A program made the translations under genes and the position numbers. Source: Clostridia bacterium (lineage in GTDB: Bacteria > Bacillota > Clostridia > Oscillospirales > Feifaniaceae). Taken from it: a stretch of DNA of 64,000 nt. The DNA is taken from contig JAFWXR010000037.1 in NCBI GenBank assembly GCA_017517965.1, forward strand, positions 1 to 64,000, written 5' to 3'. A model generated the notes under the pieces. The model searched no databases. It saw only the letters and a program-made list of their open reading frames with translations, and had not been told where the DNA came from. Below are positions 40,659-59,660 of the stretch, piece after piece. The stretch's first letter is position 1. Each line of letters begins with the position of its first letter.

Positions 40659-40946
40659 GCATACAAAACCGCACGGTGCGACTCTGAACATCGGCTACGC
40701 CCGCATTTCCGTTTTCATCACTCAAAACAGCTTTTCTTATGGCACATTATAAAGTCCGCTTATGGCTGCTCGGTTCCCCGCCTGACCAGGTTCACGGTAT
40801 ATAATCGCATAAGGACTGCTTATCAACGCTCCGAAAACGGCTGCTGTGACACAGCCGATGCCCTCGGCACGCACACTTTTCTCTGCTATAGCGGATTGCA
40901 GACTACAGGGTGCCGCTACATCCCCGATTAGTGCGGTTTTGTATGC
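40659..40946 (-). ncRNA. ffs: Signal recognition particle RNA (large bacterial type)
   Basis: About 288 nt on the minus strand. The ends pair as GCATACAAAACCGCAC / GTGCGGTTTTGTATGC (40931-40946 with 40659-40674). The Ffh-binding apical domain is clear: CCGTGAACCTGGTCAGG ... GGGAACCGAGCAGCC near 40768-40803. The length and additional 5' Alu-type region match the long SRP RNA of Firmicutes. Its position just upstream of dnaX is the conserved Bacillus/Clostridium arrangement. Confidence 0.93.
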
Positions 40947-51573: not shown

Positions 51574-51933
51574 AAAAAAACGCCCCATAGGGACGAACAT
51601 AAATAAAAATAACCCTTGACCCATGCTTCTTTACGCATCTTCGGCAGGTCAAGGGTTATTTTTCTTCACTCTTGATATCTAACATCTTTTTCTTTTACCT
51701 CACATTCTTTAGATTTTTTGCCTTCTTCTTCAAGTTACCGTTTCTCGTTGTTTCCTTACTCCATCTCTCTCCCGTAAAGCGGGACCCTTTAACATACTAC
51801 ACTACTTAAGAAGGCTGATATTTAAAACTCTTGTCTTAGTCAGGCACCCGGACTGCTGCCACTTGCCTTGATTTAAGCTTCAAGAGCAATTTGCCGTTAC
51901 CTGTTCATCGGGTATCACCCCTTTCTCTTTGCA
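51574..51933 (-). ncRNA. Structured noncoding RNA, copy 1 (unassigned class)
   Basis: Minus-strand transcript of about 330 nt from a promoter at 51939-51967 to a 17-bp-stem terminator (51606-51622 with 51648-51664). A second short hairpin with a T7 tail follows at 51574-51595. Order from the 5' end: GGGTGATACCC mini-hairpin (51910-51920); a CTCTTG/CAAGAG helix enclosing an AGGCA/TGCCT hairpin (51842-51868) whose conserved loop contains GTGGCAGCAGTCC; a GCCTTCTT/AAGAAGGC helix (51808-51815 with 51720-51727) closing a variable region; a nearly invariant A/G-rich stretch; the terminator. A diverged copy lies at 59098-59463. It lacks T-box, tmRNA, RNase P and common riboswitch hallmarks. It is not the leader of any gene: only a GH16 end lies downstream, on the other strand. 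Confidence 0.8.
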
Positions 51934-51938
51934 TCTTT

Positions 51939-52025
51939 AATATAACATGATTTTTTAAATCTTACAATATGTAAAACTGTATGAAATAAATTGACTTTTC
52001 TTATGCATAACGCAGAAATTTTATT
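51939..52025 (-). promoter_or_regulatory. Promoter and control sites of noncoding RNA 1
   Basis: Minus-strand TTGTAA (51962-51967), 17-bp spacer, TATATT (51939-51944). The -35 lies in the palindrome TTACA-ATA-TGTAA (51962-51974). Further upstream is the palindrome TTATGCATAA (52001-52010) inside a 26-nt block (52000-52025) identical to the copy-2 locus. Confidence 0.75.
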
Positions 52026-52042
52026 TGCTCGGAAGAAAAGCA

Positions 52043-52072
52043 TTGACGGCGGTATTTTTTATTTGCTATACT
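52043..52072 (+). promoter_or_regulatory. Divergent plus-strand promoter of RNA locus 1
   Basis: TTGACG (52043-52048), 18-bp spacer, TATACT (52067-52072). Boxes and spacing are the same in locus 2 (59573-59602). This is the best candidate promoter for trxA-trxB. Confidence 0.75.
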
Positions 52073-52093
52073 AAATTTGTTAGAGCTGTTACA

Positions 52094-52128
52094 GGGGGAG
52101 AAAATCGGATGTTTTCTTCCCCTTTTTT
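52094..52128 (+). terminator. Intrinsic terminator in the trxA leader (possible attenuator)
   Basis: GGGGGAGAAAA / TTTTCTTCCCC (one G-U, plus-strand sense) with TTTTTT, about 15-50 nt after the predicted start and 60 nt before trxA. I see no other convincing trxA promoter after it, so trxAB expression may depend on read-through. Confidence 0.75.
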
Positions 52129-52188
52129 GTAATAGTTATGAGTATTATCTGCAGGGCAGGTTACAATTAAAATGAAAGGAAAATGATT

Positions 52189-57319: not shown

Positions 57320-58927
57320 TTATATGCCCAGTGCAGTCGCTATCGTCTGATAATCGTTGGTGAGAAGTGTGTCTACACCCATATCCATAAGCATCTTTGC
57401 TTCCTCTATATCGTCTGACCAGAAGAAGTTGCAACGTATACCGTGCTCGTGAGCCTTCTTGACCATATCGGCGTTATAAAGTCTCTTTACGAGCTGTACT
57501 TTTTCTGCACCTATTTCGATTGCCCTGTCAACTATCTGCAATTCCTGCTTTCCTGCCGCTACGCATACTGCAATATCAGGGGCGTATGCCTTGCATTTTT
57601 TGAGAACTTCATCGTTGAGCGTCGTGAAATAGACGTGCTTTGCACAGTCGTACTTACGTACGAGGGCAACGATTTCTTCAAGCTTGTCATCCTCCATACG
57701 TGCATCCCATATCTTGACGTGGATATTCATTATGACGCGTGAAGCAAATTTTTCCAAAATATCTTCGAATGAAGGAATCTTAAGACCGGCAAATTTACCG
57801 TCAAAGCCCAGACCGAAATCGAGTTTTAAAAGTTCTTCATACGTGTGCTCGGTAACGAGTCCCGTACCGTTGCTCACACGTTCGAGATGCTTATCGTGGC
57901 AGGAAACGAGAACACCGTCCTTAGTCGTCCAGAGGTCAAACTCTATCTCCTGTGCGCCGAGTGCGATTGCGGCACCCCATGCAGGCATACTGTTTTCGGG
58001 TGCAACCGTGTTAAAGCCTCTGTGTGCACAGATACGGGGGTAGGGAAGATCTCTGTCGAAAAGTGACACGCCTCTGCCACCGTTTCTGTAAAGCCACGGT
58101 CTGCGACCTTCTTCTATGTAGGCGTAGTGAGGCTTGGGGTCACCCCTGAAGCCTGCCGCTTTATAGTATTTTTTGTTTACGTCTATCTCGTGGGTTTCGT
58201 AACCGGCACGGCTCTTCATATCGGCAATGGTGTCGCCGTTGGGGGCGATAATACAGCTGCCGCCGCCGATAGGCGAATCCTCACCAAGCGATACTGACGA
58301 ACGTACTACGTAGGCGTTCGTATGATATGCAAGGAATTTGTTTATTATTGAGAGTGCCGAGTGCGTATCCGTCCTCTGATGTGAGCAGCCGATGATAACG
58401 TCTACTTTCTGCAGGGCGAGAGGAGCAAACGCCTCGTACATATAAAAGTCGTAGCAGGTCATAAAGCCGTAGCGTACACCCTCTATTTCAACCGTATACG
58501 GATTTTCGCGAAGTGTTGTGTAGGACGAATCAATCTCAAGTCCGCCGACTGAGGCTGACTTATCCTCCTTCGGTGCGGGGTGAGCCTTGTAGTATCTGCC
58601 TACCGTGTTGCCGTTTCTGTCAAGGGCGTGCGTCGTATTACGCCAGCCGTTTTTTGACTTGTAGCCACAGTTTACGAAGGTTATGGCGTTACATCTTTTT
58701 GCCATATCTCTTGCCGCCTGCAGATACGTTTCGTTATATTTGTTTATGCAGGCGTGATAGTTGTCCCTGCCCTTCTGCGCTGCAGGAATGTCACCCCATT
58801 CGGGCATAACGATAAGGTCAAGAGGCTCATTACAGCTTTCCATAAGCTTGAGCATTTTCTCGAAACAGATATCCGCATCCTCGGGATTTAGCGAATATTC
58901 AGGCTGAATAATTCTTACTTTCATCAT
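57320..58927 (-). CDS. Nitrilase-superfamily amidohydrolase fused to glycerophosphodiester phosphodiesterase
   Basis: 535 residues, ATG 58927 after AAGGAG. Residues 1 to about 290: carbon-nitrogen hydrolase with triad Glu43 (IVMPEWGD), Lys114 (GRYYKAHPAP) and Cys158 (GFMTCYDFYMYE). Residues about 298-535: GDPD barrel with RICAHRGFNTVAPENSMPAW, EIEFDLWTTKDGVLVSCHDK, MNIHVKIWD and a C-terminal LLTNDYQTIA. One domain should cleave an amide or nitrile, the other a glycerophosphodiester; joining them suggests sequential removal of two groups from one molecule, for example an N-acylated glycerophospho head group (inference). Cytoplasmic. A 71-nt gap with coding-like sequence in another frame separates its stop from the terminator. 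Confidence 0.88.
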   Translation of the reverse strand: MMKVRIIQPEYSLNPEDADICFEKMLKLMESCNEPLDLIVMPEWGDIPAAQKGRDNYHACINKYNETYLQAARDMAKRCNAITFVNCGYKSKNGWRNTTHALDRNGNTVGRYYKAHPAPKEDKSASVGGLEIDSSYTTLRENPYTVEIEGVRYGFMTCYDFYMYEAFAPLALQKVDVIIGCSHQRTDTHSALSIINKFLAYHTNAYVVRSSVSLGEDSPIGGGSCIIAPNGDTIADMKSRAGYETHEIDVNKKYYKAAGFRGDPKPHYAYIEEGRRPWLYRNGGRGVSLFDRDLPYPRICAHRGFNTVAPENSMPAWGAAIALGAQEIEFDLWTTKDGVLVSCHDKHLERVSNGTGLVTEHTYEELLKLDFGLGFDGKFAGLKIPSFEDILEKFASRVIMNIHVKIWDARMEDDKLEEIVALVRKYDCAKHVYFTTLNDEVLKKCKAYAPDIAVCVAAGKQELQIVDRAIEIGAEKVQLVKRLYNADMVKKAHEHGIRCNFFWSDDIEEAKMLMDMGVDTLLTNDYQTIATALGI

Positions 58928-59097: not shown

Positions 59098-59463
59098 ATA
59101 AAAAAACGCCCATAGGGCGATCATTCGATCAAAAAGCATAATTTTGTTAAAAGATCTCAGTAAATAAAAATAACCCTTGACCGATGTTTCTTTACACATT
59201 CCATACCGGTCAAGGGTTATTTTTCTTCACTTTTGATATCTAACATCTTTTTCTTTTACCTCACATTCCTTGAATTTTTTGCCTTCTTCTTTTAATGCTT
59301 TTCCCATTTTTACGTTACTTCTTTTCCTGTAAGGTGAGAACTTTTTCTTAAGAAGGCTATATATCTAAAACTCTTGCCAGGCACTCGGACTGCTGCCACT
59401 TACCTGAGCTTAAGAGCGATTCGCCGTTAACTCTTCATCGGGTATCACCCCTTTCTCTTTGCA
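59098..59463 (-). ncRNA. Structured noncoding RNA, copy 2 (unassigned class)
   Basis: Minus-strand transcript of about 300 nt, from a promoter at 59469-59497 to the terminator 59166-59182 with 59208-59224; a second hairpin CGCCC-TAT-GGGCG with T-tail lies at 59101-59120. Same element order as copy 1: GGGTGATACCC (59440-59450), CAGGTA/TGCCTG hairpin (59378-59406) with loop GTGGCAGCAGTCC, GCCTTCTT/AAGAAGGC helix (59350-59357 with 59281-59288), conserved A/G-rich stretch, terminator. The variable insert inside the last helix is shorter and unrelated in sequence to copy 1, while the helix itself is identical. It lies between the nitrilase-GDPD promoter and the deoR end, and leads into no obvious gene before its terminators. 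Confidence 0.8.
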
Positions 59464-59468
59464 CTTTT

Positions 59469-59555
59469 AATATAACACGATTTTTCGTTTCTTACAATAT
59501 GTAAAACTGTATGAAGAATTCGGGTGAAACTTATGCATAACGCAGAAATTTTATT
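59469..59555 (-). promoter_or_regulatory. Promoter and control sites of noncoding RNA 2
   Basis: Minus-strand TTGTAA (59492-59497), 17-bp spacer, TATATT (59469-59474), with the same TTACA-ATA-TGTAA palindrome (59492-59504) and the same 26-nt block with TTATGCATAA (59530-59555) as locus 1. Confidence 0.75.
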
Positions 59556-59572
59556 ACTCTGTATCAAAAGTG

Positions 59573-59602
59573 TTGACGGACATAAATTTATTCTGTTATA
59601 CT
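59573..59602 (+). promoter_or_regulatory. Divergent plus-strand promoter of RNA locus 2
   Basis: TTGACG (59573-59578), 18-bp spacer, TATACT (59597-59602). Predicted transcript of only about 50 nt ends at the hairpin at 59623-59660; no plus-strand gene follows. Confidence 0.7.
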
Positions 59603-59622
59603 GAATATGTTAGGTGTTAAAC

Positions 59623-59660
59623 AAACTCCCCGTTGTTGCGAAACAACGGGGAGTTTTATT
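59623..59660. terminator. Bidirectional terminator between RNA locus 2 and deoR-type gene
   Basis: AAACTCCCCGTTGTT-GCGA-AACAACGGGGAGTTT, 15-bp perfect stem with TTATTTTTT on the plus strand. Confidence 0.9.

Follow-up and report, generated by a model that had tools for sequence, protein, structure and literature searches.

What is controlled by the two closely similar promoter regions found in a 64,000-nucleotide stretch of a Clostridia bacterium genome (GenBank assembly GCA_017517965.1; the whole stretch is called the window below), and does their likeness point to a common regulator? The original prediction placed a minus-strand promoter (here P1, TTGTAA-17-TATATT) and a divergent plus-strand promoter (P2, TTGACG-18-TATACT) at two RNA loci, with identical sequence at two palindromes. 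Sequence reading and a promoter scan confirmed both promoters at both copies (Table 1). The 26-nt identity between the promoters (CTTATGCATAACGCAGAAATTTTATT) was confirmed as well, and the identity around the first palindrome, given as about 25 nt, was borne out over 26 nt (TCTTACAATATGTAAAACTGTATGAA). Aligned without gaps, the cassettes at 51939-52072 and 59469-59602 agree at 98 of 134 positions, which is far above chance. The claim that control sequences are better conserved than parts of the RNA held for the two blocks, which outdo the centre of the RNA (79%, with 33 gap columns), but not for the whole cassette, which at 73% stays below the 5' 49 nt (90%) and the 3' 115 nt (88%) of the RNA. 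The two paralogous RNA genes genuinely share this cassette as their control region, and homologous cassettes precede the same RNA in other families. Their consensus consists of P2 (TTGACA-17/18-TGATATACT-AATATGTTGG), a box TTnTGCAAAACGCAGAAATT, a P1 -35 block TTTCAATATGCAA and the P1 -10, so that P1 and P2 are a predicted conserved divergent promoter pair. Micro-ORFs, a 9-aa ORF and a terminator just after the plus promoter are added to this picture here. Judged from the sequences, one self-contained RNA gene, which is also found in many other gut Clostridia, is present here as two paralogous copies.

It had further been proposed that one factor co-regulates both copies through the palindromes. 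A regulon of one palindrome-binding factor on two RNA copies is favoured by the identity of the blocks, by the recurrence of homologous boxes across loci and by pattern searches of the 1.43-Mb window genome, in which CTTATGCATAACGCAGAAATTTTATT was found only at its two sites in the window, even with 3 mismatches allowed. The same searches gave a divided answer for TTACANNNTGTAA, which has four sites, two at these loci and two elsewhere. Against such a regulon stands the finding that palindromy is not conserved: when 48 homologous cassettes were aligned, TTATGCATAA was present in 4 of them and TTACAnnnTGTAA in 2. The conserved versions of the boxes, TTnTGCAAAACGCAGAAATT and TTTCAATATGCAA, are asymmetric, and the latter spans the P1 -35, box 2 being essentially the P1 -35 region. 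The perfect palindromes thus appear to be peculiar to the window copies, whereas the cassette is conserved across Clostridia, and a palindrome-binding regulator was rejected because of this lack of conservation. Moreover, the RNA module and its cassette are inherited together, and therefore the identity of the paralogues needs no shared factor; its most plausible origin is that a conserved promoter region was duplicated. One factor may possibly be shared by both copies, but it is extremely improbable that a palindrome-binding regulon is the main content of the finding.

Table 1. Positions of the predicted features of both module copies in the window.
Feature	Positions	Strand	Basis or remark
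P1 promoter, copy 1	51939-51967	-	TTGTAA-17-TATATT; -35 and -10 conserved across loci
P1 promoter, copy 2	59469-59497	-	promoter scan
Identical 26-nt block around P1 -35, copy 1 (TTACAATATGTAA of the original prediction)	51960-51985	.	copy comparison; palindrome not kept elsewhere
Identical 26-nt block around P1 -35, copy 2	59490-59515	.	copy comparison
Identical 26-nt block with conserved box TTnTGCAAAACGCAGAAATT, copy 1	52000-52025	.	genome search, cassette alignment
Identical 26-nt block, copy 2	59530-59555	.	genome search, copy comparison
P2 promoter, divergent, copy 1	52043-52072	+	TTGACG-18-TATACT
P2 promoter, copy 2	59573-59602	+	promoter scan
Predicted ~50-nt P2 RNA, copy 1	52079-52130	+	terminator 52093-52123 and T run; homologous arrangement elsewhere
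Predicted ~50-nt P2 RNA, copy 2	59609-59660	+	terminator 59623-59656 and T run; convergent gene ahead
Long RNA, copy 1 (approximate ends)	51605-51932	-	P1 and 3' hairpin; covariance-model match 51605-51712, E 8.8e-18; fold z -3.3
Long RNA, copy 2 (approximate ends)	59166-59462	-	covariance-model match 59166-59273, E 1.4e-17; fold z -5.5
Tripeptide micro-ORF ATG AAC AGG TAA (MNR*), copy 1	51897-51908	-	Shine-Dalgarno sequence (SD) AAGGGGTGA at ~51915-51923
Tripeptide micro-ORF ATG AAG AGT TAA (MKS*), copy 2	59427-59438	-	sequence comparison
9-aa ORF MLDIKSEEK*, copy 1	51656-51685	-	SD GTGAGG at ~51698-51703; stop codon in hairpin arm
9-aa ORF MLDIKSEEK*, copy 2	59217-59246	-	synonymous AAA replacing AAG
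3' terminator-like hairpin, copy 1, inner loop GUAAAGAA	51605-51663	-	covariation, fold
3' terminator-like hairpin, copy 2	59166-59224	-	covariation, fold
Second GC-rich terminator-like hairpin	51581-51595 and 59107-59119		

The 5' end of the predicted P1 RNA has a layout that recurs across homologous loci: a strong SD sequence and then an ATG with two further codons and a stop, in most cases preceded by a small mini-hairpin (GGU..ACC or GG...CC). Among 135 starts of the form SD-CC[A/G]ATG in 121 loci, 114 open an ORF of exactly 3 codons and 9 one of 2 codons, where random continuation would give 4.4% and 5.6%, and no short ORF of the same kind was found on the opposite strand of these loci. 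At least 102 of the 121 loci contain such a micro-ORF; about 15% are without a recognisable one. The codons vary and the stops are TAA (103), TGA (10) and TAG (3), with an enrichment of Arg and Lys in the tripeptides (79% against 39% expected) and AGG (30) or AAG (23) as the last sense codon among 116. Some loci contain two to four micro-ORFs in series, spaced ~48 nt. A genome-wide pattern search of the window genome found the micro-ORF pattern at the two loci of the window only. Among L269, L266 and L220, one locus encodes MG*, MF* and MW*, another MNK*, MK*, MR* and MR*, and the third MNK*, MNE*, MNG* and MRK*, the first three of which lie ~45 nt apart.

The 3' part of the P1 RNA is predicted to consist of an SD and an ORF of 9-11 codons (M(x)LDxK...) that has its stop in the terminator stem. 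A second SD precedes the 9-aa ORF, with the sequence GAAAGAGAGG in nearly all loci and ATGTGAGG in the window copies. MLDIKSEQK* occurs in 95 of 121 loci, a count that is biased by the search motif: the scan used an exact motif, which makes these 21 nt invariant by selection. Coding evidence was therefore taken from 60 weaker homologues, which were found with R1, a covariance model of the 3' domain, without an exact-motif filter. In 57 of them a 7-11-aa ORF with its stop is kept, nearly always at the hairpin base, and the peptides vary (MMLDTKNSEK, MKLDIKTEEK, MTLDFKSEQK, MVLDFKSEQK and others). Substitutions in the four core codons fall mainly on the third position (44 versus 26 and 13); five different codons are used for Leu, GAT or GAC for Asp and AAG or AAA for Lys, and the stops are TAA (29), TGA (23) and TAG (7). 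This conservation of LDxK at the amino acid level suggests that the peptide itself matters. The spacing between ATG and SD varies by non-multiples of three, so the 9-aa ORF has no upstream extension. A longer protein in the long RNA was rejected, as the frames further upstream are closed and the indels that separate GAGG from ATG have lengths not divisible by three. An alternative frame of ~26 codons from an upstream ATG in copy 2 was dropped, since it is broken in copy 1. A search of the open-access literature for the 9-aa peptide sequence found nothing.

The stop codon of this ORF lies within the 5' arm of the terminator stem, which is long and carries an A-tract and a U-tract. In the alignment 98.4% of its cells are paired and all 17 pairs show both-sided changes; as a control, sliding the stem arms abolishes this covariation. 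The loop of the 3' hairpin is often GUAAAGAA or GUGAAAGA with covarying flanks (for instance at 51605-51663), and the conservation of this loop appears to exceed what a plain terminator would call for. In 57 of 119 loci the 3' hairpin has a second terminator-like hairpin, rich in GC, within the next 120 nt, compared with 48 of ~400 random pieces. The centre of the RNA is variable in length, from 64 to 584 nt between the first micro-ORF and the last ORF of homologous loci, and partly structured (fold z of -3.3 for copy 1 and -5.5 for copy 2, both including the terminator hairpin). A central element ACACGGCGGUGUnACGC...AUAUAGAU, or a close variant, is found in 30 of 102 loci (e.g. L085, L078 and L120); its GGCG loop may pair with a downstream UUCGCCUUUUGC as a possible pseudoknot. 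A minimal module is found at L079 (~600 nt upstream of the motif), where only ~50 nt separate MNR* from the 9-aa ORF and P1, P2, box and terminators are retained. Either the structured centre is therefore dispensable or this copy is degenerate.

On the opposite strand, a P2-like promoter lies 60-200 nt upstream in 90 of 95 testable loci, compared with 9 of 242 random pieces; a first, stricter pattern had missed it in many loci (59/114). A terminator follows P2 within 75 nt in 66 of the 90 loci, compared with 18 of 270 random segments. As P2 usually runs into a terminator at once, it should yield only an RNA of ~28-50 nt with a conserved 5' end, UGUUGG. Most predicted P2 RNAs of the main subgroup, to which the P2 consensus given above belongs, have a length of 28-50 nt. 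At copy 2 the P2 RNA cannot be the mRNA of the convergent gene beyond it, which by its appearance we take to be of the DeoR type.

The module is common in one order. In relatives, BLAST found the 3' part of the RNA in further families; in one case two copies stood in tandem, and the plus promoter lay between them. The 21-nt motif GATGYTAGATATCAARAGTGA occurs in at least 116 stretches, all from Clostridia among the records listed and mostly from ruminant-gut MAGs, and a fuzzy version matches in 40 of 394 genomes of the order. In genome surveys with R1, matches were obtained in 73 of 388 genomes of the order, the window genome (G000) included, in 13 of 390 other sampled genomes of the class (14 of 391 with G000) and in none of 298 other sampled genomes of the phylum (1 of 299, which is the window genome itself). 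Phage and plasmid records gave no match, and one weak match was found in 14 viral contigs. Some loci hold the module in tandem and some genomes give up to five matches (L005, L059 and L127; G252, G267 and G076), and R1 has no match in the seven genomes sampled from the family to which the window belongs (G001-G007); gain and loss thus seem frequent. Neighbouring genes are oriented at random, with 55 codirectional and 53 opposed downstream and 53 of each upstream, and the only neighbour families that recur are large and common (in 13 of 119 loci at most, for a group that from its sequence we presume to be AraC-like). The module therefore appears to be self-contained. A linked gene or mobile element was rejected, given the lack of a recurrent neighbour and of phage or plasmid matches.

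At the gathering level, none of 4227 Rfam families, T-box included, matches the minus-strand RNA, and at the E-value level the window and 21 homologue loci gave chance-level or unrelated matches only. The 6S RNA (RF00013) was excluded, since its covariance model finds nothing in the window; a different RNA of the 6S kind, scoring slightly below the cut-off, is located at G000:C56. ARAGORN finds just one tRNA in the window, which excludes a tmRNA. Stand-alone structured RNA genes are also known in Clostridia as 6S, OLE, ROOL, GOLLD and raiA, but the module has no Rfam match at the gathering level and none above chance below it. Dual-function RNAs such as SgrS, RNAIII and SR1 likewise have an independent gene, a terminator and a short ORF, and each encodes one peptide of tens of residues; we know of no RNA of this type whose 5' end carries SD-tripeptide units or whose terminator stem contains a stop. 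Mini-ORFs of two to six codons with an SD are found in the axe-txe minigene and in LEE1/LEE4, as in the module (PMC8708949). The two-codon axe-txe minigene and the six-codon LEE mini-ORF are reported to stabilise or tune transcripts, and mini-ORFs of axe-txe and LEE1/LEE4 act in cis, partly at least via transcript protection (PMC8708949). Those mini-ORFs are single and lie in leaders of real protein genes (PMC8708949), whereas the ORFs of the module have 2-3 codons, can be serial and stand at the 5' end of a stand-alone RNA. Only the 9-11-codon ORF follows them, and with random flanks there is no downstream protein gene on which to act in cis. The module is not a 6S RNA, and neither an attenuator nor a typical type I toxin-antitoxin locus fits it well. 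Its anatomy is well supported by the comparison of loci, and the architecture appears to be new, as no described family known to us, in Rfam 15 or in the open-access literature searched, combines these features.

The reading that we prefer, tentatively and as somewhat less than an even bet, is that of a trans-acting dual-function RNA with ribosomes on both ends, the mechanism of which we infer. The RNA would act in trans and ribosomes would load at both ends. On the minimal ORFs they would initiate, terminate and linger near the 5' end, which would be shielded against 5'-to-3' decay, a step modelled on the stabilisation of mRNA by mini-ORFs in axe-txe and LEE4 (PMC8708949). The 3' ORF would tie the amount of intact RNA to translation, because the terminating ribosome would sit in the terminator stem. 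The abundance of the RNA would thus follow ribosome availability. P2 would either make a tiny RNA product or keep P1 free of antisense transcription and favourably supercoiled. Protection of the RNA does not need the peptide-level conservation of LDxK. Possible, though doubtful, is the bolder version of an undescribed RNA class with serial minimal ORFs and a 3' nonapeptide ORF that runs into the terminator, which would report or buffer free ribosome or release capacity in trans. Each serial unit (SD, small hairpin, AUG, one or two codons, stop) would then dock a ribosome without giving a useful protein.

The conservation of LDxK together with the synonymous changes, and the strong SD in nearly all loci, would also fit an mRNA that encodes the 9-aa peptide as a tiny cytosolic product, the tripeptide ORFs being uORFs that set its translation; axe-txe mini-ORFs do govern downstream cistrons in cis. 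However, the conserved coding part comprises just 4-7 codons and the C-terminal half is free to vary, the peptide has no membrane segment or signal, and a leader of 300 nt, which in 30 of 102 loci contains the conserved element ACACGGCGGUGU, would be excessive. A stop inside the terminator would also be odd if translation were efficient, and it seems rather unlikely that the peptide is the purpose of the RNA. The same stop, in the stem of a terminator that follows SD-led short ORFs, is the classic geometry of leader-peptide attenuators (trp, erm and vmlR type), in which a short ORF likewise overlaps a hairpin. Stalling on the tripeptide or 9-aa ORF, caused by an antibiotic, starvation or slow release, would block the terminator and lead to read-through; resistance genes under uORF control are known, and basic tripeptides resemble drug-dependent stalling motifs. 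Such an attenuator is nevertheless unlikely, since it would have no gene to control, given the random orientation and variety of downstream neighbours, and read-through would in 57 of 119 loci soon meet the second terminator.

The serial ORFs of 2-3 codons and the frequent last codons AGG and AAG could also be explained by a minigene array, in which drop-off of peptidyl-tRNA, which arises from minigenes and short ORFs, sequesters the tRNAs for Arg (AGG) and Lys (AAG) when peptidyl-tRNA hydrolase is limiting. This is quite improbable, as many loci have a single such ORF with AAT, AGT or ATC as the last codon and the conserved 9-aa ORF is left unexplained. The divergent arrangement in turn recalls the type I toxin-antitoxin tisB/istR, which also combines a long leader mRNA with a short divergent RNA: the P2 RNA would be the antisense regulator of the P1 mRNA, consistent with the long leader, the tiny ORF, the short RNA and the several copies per genome. 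Yet the P2 RNA pairs with its own long RNA no better than with the long RNAs found at other loci (the mean rank fraction is 0.41, which tandem loci inflate in part), by which a role as antisense to the P1 RNA was rejected, and MLDIKSEEK and MLDIKSEQK are hydrophilic instead of a small hydrophobic membrane peptide. A locus of this type is very improbable.

ORFs of two or three codons fall below the threshold of every gene finder, and here their exact length, SD and stop are kept in ~100 homologous loci from many genera. If the RNA is expressed, it would offer an unusually clear example from nature of selection acting on minimal ORFs, and the purpose of a ribosome that translates only three codons would become directly testable. 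A common RNA gene, present in about one fifth of the sampled genomes of the order, would also be added to the scarcely explored small-RNA biology of gut Clostridia. Two other features of the window are a bacterial large SRP RNA gene (Rfam RF01854) at 40669-40936 on the minus strand and, at 57320-58927 on the same strand, a 535-aa ORF, which from its sequence we presume to resemble a carbon-nitrogen hydrolase joined to a glycerophosphodiester phosphodiesterase domain.
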